Part shown: one piece after another, positions 1-11,052 of the stretch
Position numbering within the stretch: position 1 is the stretch's first letter
Layout of the letters: each line of letters starts with the position of its first letter
Assembly: GCA_017411665.1 (NCBI GenBank)
Contig: JAFQPT010000108.1
Span: 1 to 11,052, forward strand
From: Oscillospiraceae bacterium
GTDB lineage: Bacteria > Bacillota_A > Clostridia > Oscillospirales > Oscillospiraceae
DNA length: 11,052 nucleotides
Reading direction: 5' to 3'
The notes under the pieces: generated by a model
Told to the model about the DNA's origin: nothing
Database searches by the model: none
Seen by the model: the letters and a program-made list of their open reading frames with translations, nothing else
Program-made: the position numbers and the translations under genes

Positions 1-16
1 TCGCTTTTTATTATCT

Positions 17-23
17 GGGGGTG
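17..23 (+). promoter_or_regulatory. Ribosome binding site that decides the ExoIII start
   Basis: GGGGGTG ends 6 nt before the ATG at 30. The alternative GTG at 21 lies inside this site, so it is unlikely to be the start. Confidence 0.6.
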
Positions 24-29
24 TGTACT

Positions 30-779
30 ATGAAAATCATTACCTGGAACCTGAACGGGCTGTTATCCAGCGTTCAGAATCATGTGTTCGATGGCATTGC
101 GGCGCTGGAGCCGGATATTATTTGTCTGCAGGAGATACGGACACAGCAGGAGCCGGTCATACTGTCAGGCTATCACCACTTCTGGAACCACAGCGACAGG
201 GACGGTTATTCCGGTACAGCTGTCCTCACTAAAAGCAGGCCTGTGCAAGTCATTCGTGGCCTCGGGACAGAGGTAGACGAGGAGGGCAGGGTTCTGACAC
301 TGGAGTTTGAAAAATGCTTTCTTGTGAATGCCTATGCGCCCAATTCACAGCAGAACCTTCAACGGAGGGCATATCGAATGAACTGGGATACGCAGTTTTA
401 CGAGTTTGCGGGGACGCTGATGGAGGAAAAAGGAGTCATCATCTGCGGTGACTTCAACGTGACGAGAAGCGAGCTGGATATCTATGCGGAAAACCAGCGG
501 CAGGTATGGGCGCAGATGGGCTACGCATCCGACGAACGCTCCAATCTGGAGTCCTTTTTAGAACTGGGATATACCGATGTGTTCCGGTTTCTGTACCCGG
601 AAAAGCGCTCCTATACATGGTGGAGCAACCGGCTCAACAAGCGGAAAGAGAACCGGGGCTGGCGGCTGGACTACTTCTTTGTGTCCGATGACCTGCTCTC
701 TGGGGTCGTGCGGGTGGAACATCTGGAAGAAATGCGTGGCTCTGACCACTGTCCGGTGCTTCTGGAGGTGTCGGTGTGA
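30..779 (+). CDS. Exonuclease III / AP endonuclease family protein (ExoA/Xth type)
   Basis: A 249-residue protein of the endonuclease/exonuclease/phosphatase fold, the usual length for bacterial ExoIII/ExoA. The family cuts DNA 5' of abasic sites and removes nucleotides 3'->5' from duplex ends, and often has RNase H-like and 3'-phosphatase activity. The active-site set appears complete: N7 in TWNLNGL, E35 in LQEIR, Y102 in NAYAPNS, D141 and N143 in GDFNV, D214 in RLDYFFVS, and D239-H240 in GSDHCP. The ATG at 30 is preferred over an in-frame GTG at 21 because GGGGGTG at 17-23 lies 6 nt before it and the protein then begins MKIITWN, as in the family. The stop overlaps the GTG of the downstream reverse transcriptase by 4 nt, so the two are probably translationally coupled. 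It may be the host repair enzyme's paralogue carried by the element. Family assignment is secure; its role with the RT is inference. Confidence 0.95.
   Translation: MKIITWNLNGLLSSVQNHVFDGIAALEPDIICLQEIRTQQEPVILSGYHHFWNHSDRDGYSGTAVLTKSRPVQVIRGLGTEVDEEGRVLTLEFEKCFLVNAYAPNSQQNLQRRAYRMNWDTQFYEFAGTLMEEKGVIICGDFNVTRSELDIYAENQRQVWAQMGYASDERSNLESFLELGYTDVFRFLYPEKRSYTWWSNRLNKRKENRGWRLDYFFVSDDLLSGVVRVEHLEEMRGSDHCPVLLEVSV
764..770 (+). promoter_or_regulatory. Ribosome binding site of the RT, inside the ExoIII gene
   Basis: GGAGGTG lies 5 nt before the GTG at 776 and within the last codons of the ExoIII gene. It decides the RT start and, with the 4-nt overlap, supports coupled translation. Confidence 0.75.
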
Positions 780-2851
780 ACATTACGTTCCCCGACGAGT
801 TCCTTGCCGAGCAGTGGGACAGCATTGATTGGGATGCGGCTGCGGAAAAACTTGCCCTACTGCAGGAAAAGCTGACGATTGCGGCTTTCGGAAGAAAGGA
901 AAAGACCATCCGCAAGCTCCAGTATCAAATCGTCAATGAGATAGACATCAAATGCCTTGCTGTGCGGCATGTGGTGGCCTCCACATCGGGACCCGGCATC
1001 GATGGCGTCCGCTGGCGCACGTCGGCGGAAAAGATGCGGGCGGCAATCGCTCTGAATCCAAAAGACTATAAGGCGCAGCCTATGCGACAAATCCTGCTGG
1101 TGGTCAAGAACACGGGGAAGGAGCGCCGGCCGAGGCTGCCCACCTATTTTGACCGGGCCATGAATGTCCTCTACGGCTATGCCCTGATACCCGTTGTGGA
1201 GGCACAGGCAGAGAGGAAGTCCTTTGCCTTCCGGCAGGGACGCTCGTCGCAAGACGCCCATGCGTATGTTCTGGAAGCGCTAAAAGGGAACAACGCCCCG
1301 GAATATGTGGTCTGCGCGGATATCAAATCCTACTTTGCCAGCATCCAGCATTCATGGCTTCTGGAACACGCACCCATGGATAAGAAAATATTGGCGGAGT
1401 TCCTTCGTGCCGGATACGTCTTCGCCGGTGAGTTGTTCCCATCCGACGGAGAGGGTATCAGCGAAGGCTCCAATCTGTCTCCGTATCTTGGGAACTTTGT
1501 TTTGGACGGTTTGCAGAAGTACATCTATCGCGGCCTCTATGGAACCAGCGCACCGCAGGACTATGCGGATGGGAACCTCATCCGCTTCGCTGACGATATC
1601 CGCATCTTTGTCCGAACAAAGGAAAAGGGAGAGCGAGCTATAGAGCTGTTGGAAGACTTCCTCGCGGAACGTGGCCTGCGCCTGTCGCCGGAAAAGACGA
1701 TGCTCTGTAACATCAACGAGGGCATGACCTTCCTGTCCCGCACCTATATCCGCAAGGGAGGCCACATCTACTCCTATCCGTCTGACGCTGCAGTAGAGCG
1801 GTTTATTGCCGAGCTGCGTGAGGTGATACAGACCAACACCAAGTCGCAAAGAGCATTGATTGAGACCTTGAATAAGAAATTGAAGGGATGGGGCGCCTAC
1901 CACCGGTACAGCGATGCGGAGGAGGCGTTCCGGCGTGTGGATGCGGCGGTGCAGACTGCCCTGCTCGACGCTGCCATGGCCAAGCACCCGAAGCTGCCGA
2001 AGCCCAAAGTGATTTCCCGCTACTGGTATCGTGAATCGGATGGCAGGCACAGTTTTGCGCTGCCGGATGATAAGAGTATCCGGGTCACCCGATTGGCGGA
2101 TACCATCCTCCTGCAGCACAGTAAGGTGAAGACCAACGCAAACCCCTTTGTAGAGCGGGACTATACAGAAAGCAGGGGACATGAACGGGCAATTAAAAAC
2201 GTAACAGGCCCCTATAAGGCAATATGGGAGCGCCAGAACGGACGCTGCCATTACTGCGGACGACCCATCCTCGGCGACCAGGTTCGGACTATCGTGCAGT
2301 TAGATATCAGCAAGCCTCCATCCGTGAAAAACAGCGCGTACATCCATAAAATCTGCGTGGTAAATGAGTTTGAGCTGATTCGGACAGCGGAAGATATCAC
2401 AAGCATGCGGCCGTACGATGTCCTTAAAGCGCTGGAGGAGATTTCAGATAAGCCGGAACCAGGCACGAGGAGAAAGCGGGAAATCAATGAGAAGTGGAAG
2501 CACTATGGCTTCAAGAAATACCTGAGCGATTGCACTGCCGCGTCTGTTACGCTGACCTTCCGCGAGATAGAGGAACTGGATGGACAGCCTATGGCCGCCT
2601 CTGCCCGGAAATCGATGGGCTGGTGGTCGCCGAGGACGAACTGCAACACCATCGCGGAGGCGTGGCTGACGGAGGGGTACGTGCTCCACAATCTCGACCT
2701 TGAGAAGGAGAAAATCACGCTTCGCCGAAAAGAGGAGGGAATCGCCAGACTACAGGTGCCCAGAGCGCTGCTGGAGAAGAAGATTCCGGAAAACGCCATA
2801 TTTGAGCTGGAGACCCACATGGACTATATCATCAAAAAATACGGGCTGTAA
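776..2851 (+). CDS. Group II intron-like reverse transcriptase with HNH-like segment and DUF7662-like C-terminus
   Basis: A 691-residue RNA-directed DNA polymerase. RT blocks occur in order: SGPGIDG (72-77), the RRPRLPTYFDRAMN block (118-130), SFAFRQGRSSQDA (149-161), ADIKSYF with catalytic D182 (181-187), EGSNLSPYLGN (230-240), FADD with D273/D274 (271-274), GLRLSPEKT (300-308) and the TFLSRTYIR block (318-326). Residues 340-425 resemble the maturase/thumb X domain (LNKKLKGWGAYHRYSDAEEAF). Residues 491-527 hold CxxC...HxxC, like a degenerate HNH or zinc finger. Residues about 590-655 match the pattern LTFxEIEEL...SARK...WW...AEAWLxxGYxLxNLDL of a small family I recall as DUF7662. The GTG start overlaps the ExoIII stop (GTGA) and has GGAGGTG at 764-770. 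Intron-encoded proteins are usually shorter and lie inside catalytic RNA; I see no domain V-like hairpin downstream. It lacks the DGR-type SQ motif and retron signatures. The RT call is secure; its biological role is unknown. Confidence 0.93.
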   Translation: MNITFPDEFLAEQWDSIDWDAAAEKLALLQEKLTIAAFGRKEKTIRKLQYQIVNEIDIKCLAVRHVVASTSGPGIDGVRWRTSAEKMRAAIALNPKDYKAQPMRQILLVVKNTGKERRPRLPTYFDRAMNVLYGYALIPVVEAQAERKSFAFRQGRSSQDAHAYVLEALKGNNAPEYVVCADIKSYFASIQHSWLLEHAPMDKKILAEFLRAGYVFAGELFPSDGEGISEGSNLSPYLGNFVLDGLQKYIYRGLYGTSAPQDYADGNLIRFADDIRIFVRTKEKGERAIELLEDFLAERGLRLSPEKTMLCNINEGMTFLSRTYIRKGGHIYSYPSDAAVERFIAELREVIQTNTKSQRALIETLNKKLKGWGAYHRYSDAEEAFRRVDAAVQTALLDAAMAKHPKLPKPKVISRYWYRESDGRHSFALPDDKSIRVTRLADTILLQHSKVKTNANPFVERDYTESRGHERAIKNVTGPYKAIWERQNGRCHYCGRPILGDQVRTIVQLDISKPPSVKNSAYIHKICVVNEFELIRTAEDITSMRPYDVLKALEEISDKPEPGTRRKREINEKWKHYGFKKYLSDCTAASVTLTFREIEELDGQPMAASARKSMGWWSPRTNCNTIAEAWLTEGYVLHNLDLEKEKITLRRKEEGIARLQVPRALLEKKIPENAIFELETHMDYIIKKYGL

Positions 2852-2890
2852 AAAGAAAGGGGGGAGACTGCGAGATGCAGCCTCCCCCTT
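2851..2890 (-). terminator. Intrinsic terminator of the minus-strand operon, convergent with the RT gene
   Basis: A hairpin with outer arms GGGGGAG (2860-2866) and CTCCCCC (2882-2888), an A-C mismatch, and inner arms CTGC (2868-2871) and GCAG (2877-2880). Read on the minus strand it is followed by TTTCTTTTT, the expected U-tract, and it begins just beyond the stop of the 2904-3335 gene. On the plus strand there is no T-run after it, so any effect on the RT transcript would be through the hairpin alone. Confidence 0.75.
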
Positions 2891-2903
2891 GGGTCGTGTT
2901 CAG

Positions 2904-3335
2904 TTACTTCGGTTCCTTGCTTGCGCTGGTGTGGCAGATGTAGTCCTGAAGCCCTAAAGAAATGGTATCGTGATTTGCCCTGTAGAGCTTACCGTCGGAA
3001 TCGCGGGTGATAAGGAAGGCGTCTGTTCTGGCGTTGGGGTCGATGCCGGTGATGGTATAGACAACCTTCCGAAGCATGATTTTTCTTTGGTACCAGTCAG
3101 GGTTGCCTTTGAACCGGGCGGCATGGCGTTTATACTCCATGGCGGCGACAGCTTCCTCGTCGCTGGTATCCACGCCCTCCTCCGCAGCCGAGCACTTACA
3201 GGTGAAGGAAATGCTGTCCTCGTTGTAGCGCATGGGGCCGACACGGATAAGGATGCCCAGTTTCTTCTGGATGTCGGGAAGGACCTGCGCCAACTCGTCA
3301 CGCAGAGCGGTACATGTTTCCTTTGTGATTTTCAT
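2904..3335 (-). CDS. Hypothetical protein, 143 residues
   Basis: I do not recognise this family. It is a soluble, mixed-charge protein with no membrane segment. An N-terminal helical stretch (residues 1-25) is followed by a probable beta-rich part containing the pair CKC near residue 46. A segment around residues 60-110 (EAVAAMEYKRHAARF, then WYQRKIMLRKVVYTITGI) is rich in basic residues and could bind nucleic acid; that is inference. The start has AGGAGG, which overlaps the TAG stop of the upstream 131-residue gene, so the two are co-translated in one operon. It is the last gene before the terminator at 2851-2890. The opposite-strand open frame at 2970-3389 is a shadow. Confidence 0.75.
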   Translation of the reverse strand: MKITKETCTALRDELAQVLPDIQKKLGILIRVGPMRYNEDSISFTCKCSAAEEGVDTSDEEAVAAMEYKRHAARFKGNPDWYQRKIMLRKVVYTITGIDPNARTDAFLITRDSDGKLYRANHDTISLGLQDYICHTSASKEPK

Positions 3336-3349
3336 TGCGGTGTTTCCTC

Positions 3350-3745
3350 CTATTCAAGATTGATGGTGACATCTCCTACGTGCCGGTAGTTCTTGAGAAT
3401 GCATCGGCGAAGGCGCTTTGCCTCGGCAAGCAGTTTCTTCTTCTCACGGTAGAGATGCTTCGGGCGCGAAGCCGTATGCTCGATGCCGATTATCTCACCG
3501 TCTATGGGACTGCAGGCAGTTAGATGTTTGCCACTGTCATTGACATTCTCGCAAAGATAGGTGATTTCCCCATTGCCATAGTCATGGAAATCTTCCTCCC
3601 TCATCTTTGCCCGGCCAATACGGATTTCTTTGATGATGAAGGTCTGGGGATAGATAGTGTAGTGATACGGTTTCTCCCGGCTTGTACTTACAGCAGCTAC
3701 ACCGTAGAGTTTCGTATAGAGCGCATCTGGAATAGAGTAATCCAT
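3350..3745 (-). CDS. Hypothetical protein, 131 residues
   Basis: I do not recognise this family. The N-terminal half (residues 1-95) has a pattern of short beta-strand-like stretches such as YHYTIYPQTFIIKEI and GNGEITYLCENV. The C-terminal part, RPKHLYREKKKLLAEAKRLRRCILKNY, is a strongly basic helix of the kind that often contacts nucleic acid; function is not known. AGGAGG lies 8 nt before the ATG at 3745, and the gene begins 21 nt after the stop of the SpoVT-like gene and ends 14 nt before the next, so it sits mid-operon. The Asp/Glu-rich centre (EEDFHDYGNGE) contrasts with the basic tail. Confidence 0.75.
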   Translation of the reverse strand: MDYSIPDALYTKLYGVAAVSTSREKPYHYTIYPQTFIIKEIRIGRAKMREEDFHDYGNGEITYLCENVNDSGKHLTACSPIDGEIIGIEHTASRPKHLYREKKKLLAEAKRLRRCILKNYRHVGDVTINLE

Positions 3746-3766
3746 GTTCCTGTCCTCCTGAATGAA

Positions 3767-4264
3767 TCAAAGTGTGGCGTCAAGGATGGAAGCGGCCATC
3801 TCCAGAATGGCACGATTCCCTTCAATCTCGTCTGACGGCCCCACAAGGATGAGGGCTGCGATTATCTCCTCGCCGCGACGGACGGGGAGAGCCAGATAAT
3901 GGGTGCCATCCATGATGTGTCCGGACTGTGCATGCCCGCCATCACGGACCTGCTTGAAGATTGCGGCGGCCCCGATTTTGGCGTCCACGCCTCTCGATGA
4001 CGTTGTAAAAGCGTCTGCCAGCTTCAAGGTAAGGGAGGCGCCTTTGAGTTTGGGGAAGATGCCATTCAAAATCCGCCCGGCAGACACGGGCAGACAGTCC
4101 AGAGGAGAATAGGGTGTGGCGATGAGATATCTTCCACCTTCGTCTTCAGCGACGCTGAGTTCCAGAGGGTCGTTTTCCTGCAGGCGCAGGGAACGGCGAA
4201 GCTCCTTCGGGATAATGATTCTGCCAAGCTCATCGATTCTTCTGATGATTCCGGTTTTCTGCAT
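3767..4264 (-). CDS. AbrB/SpoVT-family transcription regulator
   Basis: A 165-residue protein whose first ~48 residues, TGIIRRIDELGRIIIPKELR and onward, are a textbook AbrB/SpoVT swapped-hairpin DNA-binding domain, the fold also seen in MazE-type antitoxins. SpoVT of Bacillus is about 178 residues with the same N-terminus and a C-terminal GAF-like sensor. Residues ~55-165 here, including GAAAIFKQVRDGGHAQSGHI and LPVRRGEEIIAALILVG, then a terminal helix, fit such a sensor domain but are diverged, so the ligand is unknown. It begins 14 nt after the stop of the small acidic gene, with GGAAGG before the ATG. It probably regulates genes of the element, perhaps linking them to growth phase or sporulation; that is inference. 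No toxin partner is visible, and the C-terminal sensor makes an antitoxin role unlikely. Confidence 0.9.
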   Translation of the reverse strand: MQKTGIIRRIDELGRIIIPKELRRSLRLQENDPLELSVAEDEGGRYLIATPYSPLDCLPVSAGRILNGIFPKLKGASLTLKLADAFTTSSRGVDAKIGAAAIFKQVRDGGHAQSGHIMDGTHYLALPVRRGEEIIAALILVGPSDEIEGNRAILEMAASILDATL

Positions 4265-4278
4265 AGCGCACCTTCCTT

Positions 4279-4527
4279 TCAGGAGAAGAACCCGACGTCC
4301 TGCATGGCCGCCTGCGTCAGACCGGCGTTGGTGAACAGCTCCTCGAAATCAGTTCGGTCCTCATACAGCTCGGACAGCAGGGAACAGAGAGAGTCCTTTG
4401 CTCCGGCCTCATAGGTCCAGTCGATACTGTCCGGGGAATAGTTGGCTTCAAACTCTCTGTGGTAATCTTCGGTGGCGCCTTCCAGTTGGTCTTCGTAGAG
4501 GGTGCGATAGATGCCTTCATAGTCCAT
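4279..4527 (-). CDS. Small acidic hypothetical protein, 82 residues
   Basis: I do not recognise this family. By my count it has 20 Asp/Glu and only four Lys/Arg in 82 residues, so it is strongly negative; tyrosines are frequent in the N-terminal half (MDYEGIYRTLYEDQLEG). It has no membrane segment or signal peptide. AAAAGGAG lies 9 nt before the ATG at 4527. It is the first gene after the hairpin at 4637-4663 and starts a tight block of four genes (82, 165, 131 and 143 residues). Small acidic proteins on mobile elements include DNA mimics that block restriction enzymes, but charge alone does not prove this. Confidence 0.75.
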   Translation of the reverse strand: MDYEGIYRTLYEDQLEGATEDYHREFEANYSPDSIDWTYEAGAKDSLCSLLSELYEDRTDFEELFTNAGLTQAAMQDVGFFS

Positions 4528-4963: not shown

Positions 4964-7900
4964 TTATACAGCGGCAATGGCCGCTTCTATCTCATCTGCT
5001 GTTGCCGCGCTCTCGGCGCCGGCGCCGATTGCCTCCACATCGCTGAGGAAGTCGCGCAGGCTCTCCACATGCGTTGACAGGTCAATATCGGAATCAGTAT
5101 CGTCCATCCCGACGCCATCATCCACAGGGTCGTGGATTTCAGTGTCAACGGCATCCGGCAAATCAGACTCCACGCCAAGGTCCAAATCATGGACGTCGGG
5201 CAATTCAACACCGGCGGCGCTGCTGGCATAAGTGTCTGCGATATGGGCCAGCATGGAATCGAAGCCGTGGAATATCTCATTGAGCGTTTCCGCGATGCCG
5301 CATACTCGGTCCACGAAAGTATCGTTGTCGATGGCAGACAGCTTCTCGCAGACAGATTCCTTGATAGCCTCTGTATCCGCCTGCCATTCCGGGTCAAACT
5401 TTTCGTTAAGGTAGTCGGCTACCCGCTCCAAAGGCGCCAACTGCGCTTCTACCTTGTTGAAGTAGTCTTCCATCAGCAGGTCCCCAACCGCGCCGGCATC
5501 CCCGGTACAGATAGCGTCCACCAGCGCGGACAGATGCTCCGCCTGATAGGTAATGCTGTTGATGGCGGCGTCCTCAATGGAGCTGAATACGTCGGAGAGC
5601 CGCTGCAGTGCATCCGGCTCCACTTCCTTGCCGGACCCTTTCATATCGGCTTCAAGCTCTTGTACTGTATCCGCAAAGGCGTCGTACAGGTCGCTTTCTG
5701 CATATTCACCGCGATGCTGGTCAAGGAAATCCTCCTGAAAGCTGAACGTCCCCTCCGGTCCCTGTGACAGGAAACGGTCAAGAGCGTCCTTGATGTCCTC
5801 AATGCTAACAACTGCGCCGGTTTCCTCTGCGACGACAGCTGCATCATCATCCTTCCTTTGTGCATCGGCGGCAGATGGTGGAGAAGTATCAGATGATGCG
5901 GTCCCTATATCGACGCTGGCAGCGTTCTCCGGTATATCCGGCGGTGGGATGCGGATGGCGTCAACAGCGTCATCGCTTAATCCCATCTTCTCCGCTGCCT
6001 GTTCAAACGATGCTATTTTATCTTCAGCAGATAAAGTGGGGTCATCTAAAAGGAGCAAATACTGGTCTGCGGCATCCATGCGGCTGTCAATGCGGGCGAT
6101 GGTATCCTGCATATCCCGGTAATCCGAGAGCAGGTCATCTACATCGTCGCCCAGATTCCGCATCACCCAATCCGGCTGACGGTCCAGTTCCTCATAACCA
6201 AGGTCACGGATTTCTTCCTGTAGGGCCTCTTTTTGTAGTGAGCCTTCTGTCTGAAACTCGTAGATGCTTTCACGAATCCGCTCCAGCTGCGCGTCTTGCC
6301 ATTCTTCTGCTGTTGCAGGAGCAGGGCAATCGTATGGGGCAGGGACGTAGTTATCGATGCTGGCCTCTCGGTCCGTAGCATCCTCATGGTATTCTACATC
6401 TTCCACAAGATTTTCCACAGCGGGAAGTCCTGCGTTGCCTGTTTCGACAGAAACTGCATCTGGCTGAGGGGAGTTATCTGCGGTATCGTTTAAATTCTCG
6501 GCAGCAGCTGCGGCATCTTCCTCGTCTATAATGTCTTCCGGTGCCGGAGGTTCAACACCGGTATCCACAGGGTCTGGCTCGGTCTCGTCCAGGGCAGCCA
6601 ATGTTTCCGTGATTTGATTGAGGTCGTCGCTGGAGATGCCGTAGTCCTCGTTTCCAGTTTTGCCAACTGCGTCCATCTCCGCACGAAGTACAGTGGCGAA
6701 GGCGGCGTCCACATCCACCTTATCTGATGCAGCCACCATCCTCGCTTTACTGTAGCCATCAATGGTGGATTCTATCTGCTCCATGCGTGTCTCCATCTTT
6801 TCAATGGCGGCAGACAGCTTTTCCTTCGCTGCTGCGATGGACTCTAATTTCTGCGCTGTGTCTGCGTCCAGCTGGACTGGCTCTGCGGTCACAGTCTGGC
6901 CGGAGCCGGTATCGGGAGCGGCCTTTGCGCGAAGTTCTGTCTCTGCCGCAGACAGCTGCTCTATTTTCTCCTGATAGGCTTCAACCGTGCCGCGGATATC
7001 GGGCAGAATGCTCTGCAGATACTCGGTATGCTTTTCAAACCCATCAGCAAGACGTTCCACAAAGCTGCCTTTTACGCTCTCCGTGACCTGCTCCTTATAG
7101 GCGTCTACGCTGATGCCCTTCCCGGCCGCCGCTGCCTCCACCTTCGGCTCGTTGGACCGGTATGCGGAGATGTCCAGAGAGCGGAAATAGGATGGAGTAT
7201 CCTTTCCAACGGCGGGGTCTACATCGCTGGCCATAACGCGCCCAAAGGGGTCTACGAGGTAGTGGTCGTGGTTGAACTCGACCAACCGAACATCCGGAAT
7301 AAACAGGCGCTCCGCCTGTCCGTTGATGGTCACTGTGTCGGGAATATCCCTGCCGCTGCGCCAGACTTCCAGACTCAAGTCCCGATTATCCGGCGCTTTG
7401 GTCATATCTACGCCCATGTACTGACCGGCGGCAGGATTGCGCTTATCAATGCCAAGCTGCTCCAAATCCACACCCCGGCCAGTCACCAACCCATCGTCCC
7501 GCACGGCGCCGGACATATCACGTACCAGGTCAGGCCGGTCTCTTGCAACGGATGTGTCTGCCCCGCGCTGCTCCTCCACAGTGGTTCCCGCATCCACCTT
7601 CGCCGGGTACTTCTGGTCAAAGTAGCTGCGGACAGCGATTTCCAGCATGGACTCCCAGATATTGCTGCGGGTCAGCTCGATGATGTTCATGGCGATTTCT
7701 CCGCCGGATACCGGCTTGCCTTTATCGCCGGGCATGCCGGTCTTATAAGCCTCTATATTCAGCTCCAGACGGTCCAGAAGGACGAAGGTGTTGCGGAACA
7801 GGTATTTGTCCTTCACCTCGTCATAGCGGGCTTTCAGGGCGTCGTAGCGGCTTTCAGACGGCTCCCGCTGTTCTGTGTCCCGAACGATAAAGCGCTCGAT

Positions 7901-8152
7901 ATCCTCCGGCTGCAGGTCTGCGAAGGTGGAGACCTTATCCGCTATGATATCCTGAATGGAGCGGTCAGTGGAGCGTGCCTCCTCCGCGATTTCCATACAG
8001 ATGCGCTCCGCGTCACGGTCCCCTAAAATCTCCGTCAGAGCTTCGACGATGCGCTCGCCAATGATTTCACCAAATTCCCGAATGTCCGCTGCAGTAAAAC
8101 CGTCTTCCGGTTCCGGCTGCTCCGTCATCTCTGTTACCAGCTTTTCTTCCAT
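4964..8152 (-). CDS. Large acidic coiled-coil protein of unknown function, 1062 residues
   Basis: I cannot assign a family. The start is ATG 8152, not the upstream ATG at 8272, because AAAAGGAGGAGGAG lies directly before it and the extra 40 residues look like translated leader. It has no signal peptide or membrane segment. Residues ~20-185 are a compact helical region; ~265-335 look globular and may be the conserved core (TVTINGQAERLFIPDVRLVE, then DHYLVDPFGRVM); ~355-470 are coiled coil (YQEKIEQLSAAETELRAK; EKMETRMEQIEST); the remainder alternates Asp/Glu/Ala-rich linkers with helical blocks and ends in a very acidic tail. Short motifs recur (DPVDTGVEPP near 527; DPVDDGVGMD near the C-terminus). 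Very large multi-part proteins are common in Firmicutes conjugative elements and phages; a structural or scaffold role is possible. It is divergent from the SMC-like ATPase gene and coupled to the membrane protein gene. Real coding is supported by length and start site. Confidence 0.85.
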   Translation of the reverse strand: MEEKLVTEMTEQPEPEDGFTAADIREFGEIIGERIVEALTEILGDRDAERICMEIAEEARSTDRSIQDIIADKVSTFADLQPEDIERFIVRDTEQREPSESRYDALKARYDEVKDKYLFRNTFVLLDRLELNIEAYKTGMPGDKGKPVSGGEIAMNIIELTRSNIWESMLEIAVRSYFDQKYPAKVDAGTTVEEQRGADTSVARDRPDLVRDMSGAVRDDGLVTGRGVDLEQLGIDKRNPAAGQYMGVDMTKAPDNRDLSLEVWRSGRDIPDTVTINGQAERLFIPDVRLVEFNHDHYLVDPFGRVMASDVDPAVGKDTPSYFRSLDISAYRSNEPKVEAAAAGKGISVDAYKEQVTESVKGSFVERLADGFEKHTEYLQSILPDIRGTVEAYQEKIEQLSAAETELRAKAAPDTGSGQTVTAEPVQLDADTAQKLESIAAAKEKLSAAIEKMETRMEQIESTIDGYSKARMVAASDKVDVDAAFATVLRAEMDAVGKTGNEDYGISSDDLNQITETLAALDETEPDPVDTGVEPPAPEDIIDEEDAAAAAENLNDTADNSPQPDAVSVETGNAGLPAVENLVEDVEYHEDATDREASIDNYVPAPYDCPAPATAEEWQDAQLERIRESIYEFQTEGSLQKEALQEEIRDLGYEELDRQPDWVMRNLGDDVDDLLSDYRDMQDTIARIDSRMDAADQYLLLLDDPTLSAEDKIASFEQAAEKMGLSDDAVDAIRIPPPDIPENAASVDIGTASSDTSPPSAADAQRKDDDAAVVAEETGAVVSIEDIKDALDRFLSQGPEGTFSFQEDFLDQHRGEYAESDLYDAFADTVQELEADMKGSGKEVEPDALQRLSDVFSSIEDAAINSITYQAEHLSALVDAICTGDAGAVGDLLMEDYFNKVEAQLAPLERVADYLNEKFDPEWQADTEAIKESVCEKLSAIDNDTFVDRVCGIAETLNEIFHGFDSMLAHIADTYASSAAGVELPDVHDLDLGVESDLPDAVDTEIHDPVDDGVGMDDTDSDIDLSTHVESLRDFLSDVEAIGAGAESAATADEIEAAIAAV

Positions 8153-8154
8153 GG

Positions 8155-8168
8155 CTCCTCCTCCTTTT
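8155..8168 (-). promoter_or_regulatory. Extended ribosome binding site that fixes the start of the 1062-residue protein
   Basis: On the minus strand AAAAGGAGGAGGAG leads into ATG 8152. The best-spaced GGAGG is at 8160-8164, 7 nt before the start. The ATG at 8272 has no comparable site. Confidence 0.8.
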
Positions 8169-8218
8169 CGGGAAGTATGTCCGAACCATGCCCCGCAGAG
8201 CAATCTGACATACTCCCG
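8169..8218. repeat. Inverted repeat in the divergent intergenic region
   Basis: Arms AGTATGTC (8174-8181) and GACATACT (8207-8214) extend outward to CGGG (8169-8172) and CCCG (8215-8218) with one unpaired A at 8173, a total of 12 pairs around a 25-nt centre. It lies immediately before the ribosome site of the acidic-protein gene and 33 nt before the ATG of the ATPase gene. It could be an operator read by both genes or an RNA hairpin in the leader of the minus-strand gene. It is not followed by a T-run on either strand, so it is not a standard terminator. Confidence 0.6.
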
Positions 8219-8236
8219 GTGTAGCACTTCCAGATG

Positions 8237-8243
8237 AAAGGAG
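8237..8243 (+). promoter_or_regulatory. Ribosome binding site deciding the ATPase start
   Basis: AAAGGAG lies 8 nt before ATG 8252, after which the protein begins MKISRVHLQHFKG as in RecF/SMC-like proteins. The in-frame ATG at 8234 would add only six residues and has no such site. Confidence 0.75.
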
Positions 8244-8251
8244 ACAACACA

Positions 8252-10042
8252 ATGAAAATCAGCAGAGTGCATTTACAGCACTTCAAAGGCATCACAGAGG
8301 CGGAGGTAGAGCCGGCAAAAGTCAATATCCTGGTCGGTGCAAATGGAATGGGAAAGACCAGCTTTCTCGAAGGTATCCGCTACGGCATTACAGGCAAAGG
8401 CACCGAGGACATGATTAACGTGGCATCCTGCGACGGGTCCGTGCTGGTGGATATCGATGGACTGGGGACGCTGGAGCGGCAGTTCCGGTATGACAAAACA
8501 AAGGTCAAAGTGTGCGGGAAAACCACCACGGCAAAAGCCGCCATGGAGACCCTTATCAACCTGTTGGGCTGCTCCTCCACCACGATGAATATGATGTTCT
8601 CCTCAGAGCTGGTGGAGCAGATGATGGGTACAGACCTCGCCCAATACCTGCTTAACGAGGGGTTCCTGAAAAATGACATGGATATCGACAAGCTGCTGGC
8701 GCTGTGCTCTCTGTCCCCGGAAGCGGAGGCAGAACTTCGTATGATGCTCCCTGCTGCGCCGGCGGCAATCTCCCTTGAGGACATCCAGGAGGCCTATGAC
8801 TTCTATTTCGCTGTCCGGACGGATAAGAAGAAGGCACTGGCGGAGGCAGAGGCTGTTGCAAAGTATAACGGCATCATTCCTACCCGCACGGCCAAAGACA
8901 TCCAGCAGGAGCAGGCGGCGGTAGCCGAGCGTATCGGAAAGCTTTCGGCAGAGCGTGACGGCTACGTGAATCTGAAGCGCGCCTACGATAACCATGTGTC
9001 GAATATGGAGGCGCTGGAGAAGAAACTGGCTGCATTCAACGGTGTGAAGGCGCCATCCAAATCCGAGCGGGAGCTGGTAGATGAAAAGCTCCGCGCTGCA
9101 AACGAGCTGCTGCGGGAAACGGAGAGCGGTATCCGGATTGCACAGCAGGATATTGCAGGTATGACGAAAATCCTCAACGCCCTTGAAAAACCCGTCTGCC
9201 CCATTAGCGAGAAGCTGGTCTGCGCCACTGATAAAACGAGCGTAAAATCGGAACTGGAGGCTATCATCGCCGATAAGAAGGCGTTGGTCGTAGCCGGTGA
9301 AAAGAAGATGAGGGAACTGGATGGAGTTATCCGGGAGCAGGAGGAGAAGCGGAAGGCATTGGAGAAGCAGATGTCCGATTACAATGCCAAGCTGGTCTAT
9401 TTCGAGCAGTATGAGAAGGAAAAGAAAGTTACCATCTCCGTTCCCGTGCAGCCGGATGGAAAGGAGCTGGGCCGCCTGCGCGAAGTAGCCAGAGCGCTTC
9501 AAAATGAGCTGGATACTGCTTTGAAGTACGCCAGAGCACAGGATGCAGAGCGTCGGTGCATGGGCCTGCGCAGCGCAGTGGATATCCACAATGAACTGGT
9601 AGCGCAGCTGTCCCCGAAGGGCGGCGTCCGGCAAAAGGTGCTGGAGTATCACGTCCATCCGCTGCAGGAATACTGCAACGATAAAATGACGTCTGTCCTG
9701 CCCAAGTACAAGATGGTGCTGGACTGCAGCAATGGATTCCGCCTGCGATTTGCAACTGCAACGGGCGAGATGATTACCTACAAAGCGCTGTCAAAGGGCG
9801 AACAGCTCCGTGCGGCATATATCCTCATGAGCATGTTCAACGCCCTCAATCAGTTCCGCATCCTCATGCTGGATAATCTGGACGGCCTCGACGAGGATTC
9901 CTGTATCCAGCTGCTGCAGCTTATCGCAAGGGACATCGACGATTATGACCATGTGTTCCTTTGCAGCGCCAATGAGAGTCTGTCCCGCGCAGCAGCGGCC
10001 AGCGGTATTACCGATATCCGCAGTATCTCTATCGCAAGCTGA
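8252..10042 (+). CDS. SMC/Rad50/RecF-like AAA ATPase
   Basis: A 596-residue ABC-type ATPase of the RecF/SbcC/Rad50/SMC superfamily. N-terminal MKISRVHLQHFKGI is followed by Walker A GANGMGKTS (29-37). Residues ~190-435 form a coiled-coil arm, EKKMRELDGVIREQEEKRK among others, interrupted near the tip by VCPISEKLVCATDKT with C316 and C324, like a zinc-hook but with seven residues between the cysteines instead of Rad50's two. The C-terminal head has the signature SKGEQLRAAYIL (514-525) and Walker B RILMLDNLDGLDEDS (536-550), with N542 where a catalytic Glu is usual. It is shorter than SbcC or Rad50 (around 1000 residues). The start is ATG 8252, with AAAGGAG 8 nt upstream; an ATG at 8234 precedes that site. 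No SbcD/Mre11-like nuclease is adjacent. It may act on DNA ends in element maintenance, repair or defence; the substrate is unknown. Confidence 0.9.
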   Translation: MKISRVHLQHFKGITEAEVEPAKVNILVGANGMGKTSFLEGIRYGITGKGTEDMINVASCDGSVLVDIDGLGTLERQFRYDKTKVKVCGKTTTAKAAMETLINLLGCSSTTMNMMFSSELVEQMMGTDLAQYLLNEGFLKNDMDIDKLLALCSLSPEAEAELRMMLPAAPAAISLEDIQEAYDFYFAVRTDKKKALAEAEAVAKYNGIIPTRTAKDIQQEQAAVAERIGKLSAERDGYVNLKRAYDNHVSNMEALEKKLAAFNGVKAPSKSERELVDEKLRAANELLRETESGIRIAQQDIAGMTKILNALEKPVCPISEKLVCATDKTSVKSELEAIIADKKALVVAGEKKMRELDGVIREQEEKRKALEKQMSDYNAKLVYFEQYEKEKKVTISVPVQPDGKELGRLREVARALQNELDTALKYARAQDAERRCMGLRSAVDIHNELVAQLSPKGGVRQKVLEYHVHPLQEYCNDKMTSVLPKYKMVLDCSNGFRLRFATATGEMITYKALSKGEQLRAAYILMSMFNALNQFRILMLDNLDGLDEDSCIQLLQLIARDIDDYDHVFLCSANESLSRAAAASGITDIRSISIAS

Positions 10043-10166: not shown

Positions 10167-10496
10167 TTGCATGACAGCTATAAGGGTGGCGCGTTGACGG
10201 AAGTGATGTTCTATGTGCTTTTGGCCACATTTACACCAAGACATGGATATGCCATCATGCAGTTCATTGAGCAGAAGACAGGCGGCAGACTTGAACTGGG
10301 TGCTGGAACGCTGTATGGAGCCATTAACACCCTTGTGAAGAAGAACTGGATTGAACCCTGCGGAGAGGACCAGGGGAGGAAGAAGGAGTACCGGGTAACA
10401 GAACTTGGACGGAGGATTGCAGAGCAGGAGCTGCAGAGGCTTCGCGGCCTAACTCAGGTTGCAGGTGAAATCATTGGAGGGTATACACATGAGTAA
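10167..10496 (+). CDS. PadR-family transcription regulator
   Basis: A 109-residue winged-helix regulator, the usual length of short PadR proteins. The family core is clear: YKGGALTEVMFYVLLATFTP (5-24), HGYAIMQFIEQKTGGR (26-41), LGAGTLYGAINTL (44-56, the recognition-helix region) and the wing GRKKEYRVTELGRR. A C-terminal helix for dimer formation follows. I prefer TTG 10167 to ATG 10152 because of the near-perfect ribosome site and because family members begin shortly before the YKGGALTE motif; the alternative adds five residues. The stop overlaps the start of the DUF2812 gene (ATGAGTAA), so the two are translationally coupled. Such PadR proteins usually repress their own operon and release it in response to drugs, antimicrobial peptides or envelope stress; the signal here is unknown. 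Confidence 0.92.
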   Translation: MHDSYKGGALTEVMFYVLLATFTPRHGYAIMQFIEQKTGGRLELGAGTLYGAINTLVKKNWIEPCGEDQGRKKEYRVTELGRRIAEQELQRLRGLTQVAGEIIGGYTHE

Positions 10497-11052
10497 GAAA
10501 TACTATCGCTTTTTTGGCGGTCTGCTGCAGACGCAGAGCAACTGGCTGAATAAGATGGCGGAAAAGGGGCATCGGTTGGTTCGGACAGGGAAGATGTCCT
10601 ATGAGTTTGAAGATTGTGAGCCGGGAACTTACCAGTATTGCATTGAATTTATTGCGGAGAAATCTCAGCAATCGGCACAGCAGTACAAGCAGTTCCTTGA
10701 GGATATGGGATACAAGGTGTTCTATAAGAATATCAACTTGAACTATTCCATAGGGAAGGTGCGGTATCGGCCATGGGCGGAAAAGGGCGGACGCATTGCG
10801 ACCAACGCCACGACCTTCAATAAGGAGCTGCTGATAGTGGAGAAAAGGAATGATGGGAAGCCTTTTGAACTGCACACGTCTTATGAGGACAAAATCGCAT
10901 ATACAAAGACCATGCGAAGCCCATGGCTGCTGATGGCCGCGCTGTTTCTGATTCTCGCAATCGTCCAGAAACTGTGGCCGATGGGCATTGTTGCGGTGCT
11001 GCTTTTCATCCCTGTGCTTCTGTATCAGAGGGAGCTTGCAAAACTCTCCAAA
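10489..11052 (+). CDS. DUF2812 domain membrane protein, 3' end beyond the window
   Basis: An open frame of 188 codons that reaches the window edge without a stop, so the C-terminus is missing. It begins MSKKYYRFFGGLLQTQSNWL, typical of DUF2812 proteins: a cytoplasmic domain of about 130 residues with the motif NWLNKMAEKGHRLVRTGKMSYEF, truncated here to NWLNKMAEKGHRL, and later YQYCIEF and FLEDMGYKVFYKN. Two hydrophobic segments follow at ~145-159 (PWLLMAALFLILAIV) and ~163-180 (PMGIVAVLLFIPVLL). GGAGGG at 10476-10481 lies 7 nt before the ATG, which overlaps the PadR stop by 8 nt. DUF2812 genes are often found next to PadR regulators in Firmicutes; the biochemical function is not known. A role in envelope-stress sensing is inference. 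Confidence 0.88.
   Translation, partial: MSKKYYRFFGGLLQTQSNWLNKMAEKGHRLVRTGKMSYEFEDCEPGTYQYCIEFIAEKSQQSAQQYKQFLEDMGYKVFYKNINLNYSIGKVRYRPWAEKGGRIATNATTFNKELLIVEKRNDGKPFELHTSYEDKIAYTKTMRSPWLLMAALFLILAIVQKLWPMGIVAVLLFIPVLLYQRELAKLSK

Follow-up and report, generated by a model that had tools for sequence, protein, structure and literature searches.

The locus analysed here raises the question of why, in a bacterium, a gene for a nuclease of the ExoIII/APE (AP endonuclease) family should be joined to a gene for a reverse transcriptase (RT), an arrangement best known from the jumping genes of animals and plants. The two genes lie at the start of an 11,052-nt contig of an Oscillospiraceae bacterium (JAFQPT010000108.1, assembly GCA_017411665.1; the whole contig is called the window below). 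The ExoIII gene occupies 30..779 on the plus strand (249 aa; ATG at 30, stop at 777-779) and the gene for an RT of group II intron type, lacking an intron, occupies 776..2851 on the same strand (691 aa; GTG at 776, stop at 2849-2851). The answer that we tentatively favour, at somewhat less than even chances, is that the two proteins would form one unit of nuclease and polymerase, with ExoIII preparing a 3' end for the RT to extend, and that this unit would be carried as an accessory of mobile DNA.

Linkage of the ExoIII and RT genes

The preliminary description of this DNA, made from its letters, had reported a 4-nt overlap of the ExoIII stop with the RT GTG and had placed the RT's ribosome-binding site within the ExoIII gene. 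Both observations were confirmed at 764-779: the overlap (GTGA) occupies 776..779 (+) and a GGAGG site 764..768 (+), 7 nt 5' of the GTG. Loci were gathered by scanning GTDB contigs, IMG/VR and related genomes. Nine are paired (the window, L002, L003, L004, L006, L010, L011, L040 and L041) and the same 4-nt overlap, ATGA or GTGA, recurs in eight of them (the exception, L003, has TAATG), which argues that it is not due to chance. Eight other loci are fused (L012, L042, L043, L046, L054, L055, L056 and L108), with ExoIII followed by RT in a single frame of 941-967 aa. An ExoIII is adjacent or fused in 17 of the 18 loci where the RT is intact and sequence upstream of it is available; the objection named in the preliminary description, that RT homologues might rarely have an ExoIII next to them, is thus not borne out. 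Among these 17, L054 is a near copy of L055, one element family accounts for both of them together with L012 and L042, and L040 and L041 come from one genome (G006). The count leaves aside fragments or broken members (L007/L029/L044, L008/L021/L052, L013, L031/L045 and L033), contig edges (L009/L018/L047 and L035), repeats of the same place, and RTs that are intron-type or unclassed. One of the contig-edge members (L035, in G375) is faced by a second RT-like ORF at 3-1118 (+) (372 aa, by eye).

The RT as a protein query yielded 374 matches, the best 120 of which are 60-99% identical and nearly all carry the same Pfam set as the query (RVT_N, RVT_1, GIIM and DUF7662). A search with one fusion, a query biased towards fusions, gave 1122 proteins, and the best 120 of these all carry PF03372 and PF00078; one match, from a Rikenellaceae bacterium, bears the name exodeoxyribonuclease III. 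The ExoIII-RT pair was absent from the titles and abstract openings of the literature searched (among the matches listed, with preprints and most subscription papers outside the scope).

Both active sites are intact. The window ExoIII, which matches the NCBIfam xth model TIGR00633 at 1.1e-73, has the catalytic-type residues N7, E35, Y102, D141, N143, D214, D239 and H240, presumably with the roles that they have in the ExoIII/APE1 family. Equivalents of the last six are invariant in 120/120 fused proteins, and N7 and E35 are kept in 118 and 119 of the 120, respectively. The RT comprises, all on the plus strand, RVT_N (815..1048; residues 14-91), the RVT_1 polymerase domain (1106..1735; residues 111-320) with its FADD catalytic motif (1586..1597; residues 271-274), the GIIM maturase/X (thumb) domain (1796..2026; residues 341-417), a C-C-H-C cluster left over from the group II endonuclease domain but lacking the HNH histidine (2246..2356; residues 491-527) and DUF7662 (2513..2728; residues 580-651), for which a profile search gave no PDB relative. 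In alignment, the RT4 motif of the window reads GISEG (1454..1468) where intron RTs have PQG, and most family members have GIS.G. The three catalytic Asp and the C-C-H-C zinc ligands (Cys491, Cys494, His524 and Cys527 in the window) are kept in all of 240 family RTs; the second position of FADD is Ala in 230 of these and Ile in none, and the HNH histidine position, Val in the window, is occupied by Val or Ile in 234 of them and by His in none. Judging from substitution ratios, ExoIII and RT are under purifying selection: comparison of L042 with L054 (dS above 1) gives a dN/dS of 0.038 for ExoIII and of 0.059 for RT, and that of L040 with L041 gives 0.127 for RT.

The preliminary description had called for a phylogeny of this ExoIII against host enzymes. 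Of the 27 unlinked enzymes in the ExoIII tree, 26 group in a clade (100/100) that contains no linked one, so that the linked enzymes fall outside it; L098, the remaining unlinked one, is placed on a long branch together with two fusions. Nor does the objection hold that the linked ExoIII might simply be the sole chromosomal enzyme of its host, since an unlinked ExoIII is present in addition to the RT-linked copy in 5/8 host genomes (G001, G002, G005, G006 and G202). In G003 the linked ExoIII is the only one found, and G004 and G008 each have one ExoIII only, not seen beside an RT. A clade of 11 rows (the nine pairs, L108 and P0232) is recovered in both trees (ExoIII 100/97, RT 100/100). The remaining 25 fusions are monophyletic in the RT tree (100/100) and not in the ExoIII tree, which leaves room for more than one acquisition of ExoIII. 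Against 13 intron-type RTs, 25 family RTs form one clade (100/100). Fusions are found on each of its two basal branches, with the pairs nested, and parsimony would make the fused form ancestral and the overlapping genes of the window a later split. Taken together, conserved adjacency, natural fusions, the shared 11-row clade, intact active sites and purifying selection mean that a functional ExoIII-RT unit is well supported.

Intron RNA and genomic setting

The RT possesses the polymerase and maturase/X domains (RVT_N, RVT_1 and GIIM) by which mobile group II introns are recognized. Its best NCBIfam model is group_II_RT_mat (TIGR04416), at 222.7 bits, below the 300-bit cut-off. An ordinary group II intron was nevertheless rejected, since no intron RNA was found at family loci although the controls do score: group II intron RNA was detected at 0/16 family loci under Rfam gathering cut-offs, and in window 1-4300 none appeared even at E up to 1, whereas 9/9 control loci with intron-type RTs match the D1-D4 models and 8 of these match D5 too. 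L054, L055, L056 and L108 lie outside the 16 loci scanned, and L052 is not counted among them. L052 and L053 also match group II intron RNA; in L052 (genome G007) a 349-aa frame at 8980-10026, equivalent to the C-terminal half of a family RT (residues 348-691), lies 2.5 kb from a true group II intron. Other types of element were considered as well. A diversity-generating or template-repeat element was rejected because the window has no direct repeat over 27 nt. A linked noncoding RNA was rejected on the grounds that, in the single element family used for this comparison (L042/L054/L012), the sequence directly flanking the gene is not conserved (27-64% identical per 100-nt step, against 58-93% for the gene) and that the gene ends show no extra synonymous constraint among 7 paired RTs. 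An origin in named plasmids or phages was likewise rejected, the best identity being ~35% and the annotated RTs being of group II intron or retron type among the matches listed; these searches gave no near match of the window.

The pair is patchily distributed on mobile-element-like DNA. GTDB records with family members are assigned to Oscillospiraceae, Ruminococcus and Clostridia, besides one Holosporaceae assembly and an uncultured bacterium. At 1e-60 there are matches in 7 of the 400 genomes from the family of G006, in some cases to intron-type RTs, and at 1e-150 in 4 of 394 genomes from the order of G005. The neighbour scan covered 110 proteins, with results taken from the best 25 of 53 PADLOC and the best 25 of 98 Pfam families, and large serine recombinases are common near the pair (at least 6 of the 110). 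In a set of 13 loci, one representative per group of related loci, recognised or candidate defence genes were found within 6 kb at six: type I restriction-modification (L004 and L010), an MmeI-type IIG restriction-modification gene 86 nt away (L043), BrxB and probably BrxA, the latter assigned by its place beside BrxB (L046), an FRG protein that is a candidate PDC-S15 (L011) and a UvrD helicase whose best match is GajB (L056). At 11 intron control loci there are at most two such genes (PDC-S47 and a type IV enzyme), homing endonucleases and RTs being excluded.

A YpsA/SLOG gene, found upstream in L006, L010, L043 and the L012/L042/L054 element, was considered as a third component; since a similar gene (by eye) precedes the relaxase in L157 and L158 and lies near the unlinked ExoIII L122, it was taken as part of the mobile element instead. 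A noncoding stretch of ~200 nt was also observed in L042 (12200-12490 of the reverse complement), L054, L012 and, weakly, L043, just before a gene that we take to be ParB-like. It is 86-98% identical, against 60-90% at most coding steps, and may serve the mobile element as a kind of centromere or as an RNA element.

In the window itself, 29 bases precede ExoIII. A hairpin at 2860..2888, between the RT gene and convergent minus-strand genes, is terminator-like on the minus strand; terminator-like sites in window 1-4300 number 4, against 4.4 expected by chance. The genes downstream of RT are minus-strand genes mostly without known family, plus an SMC/RecF-like ATPase and a PadR regulator. A protein of 1062-1102 aa without a Pfam family (4964-8272, minus strand) is divergent from the ATPase gene (8234-10042, plus strand), and searches for relatives of the ATPase were negative in IMG/VR, with the patterns applied, and in 8 host genomes, at 1e-10. 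The PadR gene is followed by a membrane-type ORF at 10459-11052 (+), an arrangement resembling PadR operons with a presumed DUF2812-like protein.

Possible roles of the pair

In the reading that we favour, the unit would originally have been one polypeptide (probably), and in the window the fusion would have been split into two overlapping genes. ExoIII would incise abasic or nicked DNA, or trim a 3' end, to yield a 3'-OH, and the RT, bound through its thumb and C-terminal domains, would extend this end on a DNA or RNA template. The nuclease may additionally remove RNA from a hybrid, given that E. coli ExoIII has RNase H activity. The APE nuclease may also have replaced the old, now histidine-less HNH domain. 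The most likely role would be that of an accessory module of mobile elements, acting on damaged or invading DNA for repair or defence. The preliminary description had offered a retroelement, a repair unit and a defence system as possible roles for the pair; among these, copy numbers, the missing intron RNA and the setting make us lean to an accessory repair or defence module.

Several findings weigh against this reading. A template RNA for the RT was not found at the loci examined. The RT of L005 has no ExoIII in 613 bp upstream, and in L040 a transposase-like gene interrupts the ExoIII gene. In the ExoIII tree 12 of 27 fusions stand on the side of the unlinked enzymes, with weak support (55/73). 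The loss of the HNH histidine fits a replacement of the nuclease and is no proof of it, because the histidine is equally absent from 7/14 comparable intron RT rows (L026 and L028, both in loci with intron RNA, are among these; L037, L064, L065, L066, L068, L069 and L070 retain it); on this alignment the loss is not peculiar to the ExoIII-linked family, and alone it does not show a swap of nucleases. Apart from ExoIII there is no constant partner, the difference in raw counts of defence neighbours (6/13 against 2/11) is small, and no recognised defence gene stands beside the pair in the window. Finally, one genome, G006, points to mobility of the pair on its own, as one unit.

In L040 the transposase-like gene (5890-7479, minus strand; 529 aa, by eye) splits the start of ExoIII, with 29 nt repeated on both sides. 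Upstream of the L005 RT there is transposase-like debris (by eye); L005 as a pair split by insertion was rejected, the ExoIII of that genome (L098) having no RT in the following 270 nt.

The evidence from G006 bears on an autonomous retroelement resembling APE-type non-LTR (non-long terminal repeat) elements, in which ExoIII would nick the target and the RT would start at that nick to copy the mRNA, bicistronic or fused. The fusions have the same domain order, APE then RT. The two G006 pairs, L040 and L041, are 92% identical (dS 0.29 for RT and 0.26 for ExoIII) amid flanking genes that are ancient paralogues (a gene we take to be DUF6465-like, 62% identical at the amino acid level with dS saturated, and three downstream genes at 30-33%), and the two cease to be homologous at the RT stop codon and, on the other side, ~17 nt 5' of ExoIII. 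In L041 (3296-3414) the RT stop codon is immediately followed by the tail of what is presumably a relaxase-type gene, which without the pair is whole in L157 and L158 and nearly whole in L156. Moreover, 3' remnants of RT (L041 7186-7454 and L045 245-513) end at or near the stop codon, and L044 holds an internal fragment. Against such an element, each of G001-G005 and G008 has a single full-length family copy; G007 has none, and several occur only in G006 (two pairs and two fusions). Neither a conserved terminal sequence nor a target duplication was found at the few junctions examined, the gene ends of the 7 paired RTs show no extra synonymous constraint, as noted above, and in the L042/L054/L012 element the gene diverges along with its neighbours. 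The left flank of L041 is not the relaxase-type gene, hence it offers no clean empty site. We regard autonomous retrotransposition as doubtful. Slightly more doubtful still is its strongest form, a separately evolved bacterial counterpart of APE-type non-LTR retrotransposons that would have dropped the ribozyme, exchanged HNH for an AP endonuclease and copied its own mRNA from ExoIII-made nicks; if true, the evolution from intron to LINE would be observable in bacteria.

The restriction-modification, BrxB, BrxA-type, FRG and GajB-like neighbours would suit a defence or signalling system of retron or DRT type, with the RT making cDNA and ExoIII processing it or removing its RNA template. The unconserved flanks of the L042/L054/L012 element speak against this, as do the PADLOC DRT models, of which the best (RT_UG4, 67 bits; among the best 25 of 52 families) scores under the general RT model (114.7 bits), and we consider it unlikely. 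A pure DNA-repair patch unit, in which ExoIII would open abasic sites and the RT would serve as gap-filling or end-joining polymerase, is only a little easier to accept. It draws on the ExoIII/APE family membership, on Y-family polymerase (IMS) genes near 3/13 loci (L040, L046 and L056, by cluster) and on the domesticated group II RT G2L4, which acts in repair according to PMC12337344. Patchy presence on mobile elements does not favour such a unit, nor do the 5/8 hosts that already have an unlinked ExoIII. Also, ExoIII resects 3' ends, a polarity that does not suit the joining of 3' overhangs by microhomology. That the two genes became neighbours by chance, in a mobile element densely packed with genes, or that a normal group II intron lies next to the xth of the host, is very improbable: the patchy distribution and the exception L005 would agree with it, but the natural fusions already contradict chance, and the conserved overlap, the lack of intron RNA and the unlinked ExoIII of 5/8 hosts point the same way. 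The likelihoods attached to these competing explanations overlap and do not sum to one.

Comparison with known systems

The best PDB match of the window RT is the group II intron RT/maturase 6me0 (residues 13-506, E 1.4e-82), presumably that of the T.el4h intron. The family differs from an intron RT of this type in that no intron RNA was found at its loci, in having GIS.G for PQG, a DUF7662 tail and an ExoIII partner, and in lacking the HNH histidine, though this is missing from some introns too. G2L4 is likewise an intron-less RT of group II type and acts in end joining; it has YIDD where the window RT has FADD, its RT4 motif is AQG and it lacks the D and En domains (PMC12337344), and the main text of that paper does not mention 'exonuclease'. 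No DRT/UG or retron model is the best match of the window RT, for which group_II_RT_mat scores highest (the Drt3a model gives 36.3 bits against a 200-bit cut-off). Ordinary bacterial ExoIII (xth) belongs to the same family and shares the active-site residues with the RT-linked enzymes, which lie outside the clade of 26/27 unlinked ones.

A large bacterial family thus joins an APE-type nuclease and an RT, which bears on how RTs come to use such a nuclease; it could reveal a new mechanism of repair, defence or retroelement activity, and its fusions offer a natural nuclease-polymerase fusion. In LINE-1 ORF2p an APE-family nuclease is followed by an RT in one protein. The likeness to eukaryotic non-LTR retrotransposons drawn in the preliminary description holds for this architecture, shared ancestry being at most conjectural. 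LINE-1 endonuclease chains match the window ExoIII at 1e-7, and the bacterial exodeoxyribonucleases 8igi and 5cfe match it far better; the RT is best matched by group II intron RTs, and the tree comparison of the family was with intron-type RTs. Group II introns are themselves thought to be ancestral to non-LTR retrotransposons (PMC4244168). As in the APE-type members of the latter, the nuclease and the RT are found in one protein in the fused relatives, whereas the window has them as two overlapping genes.

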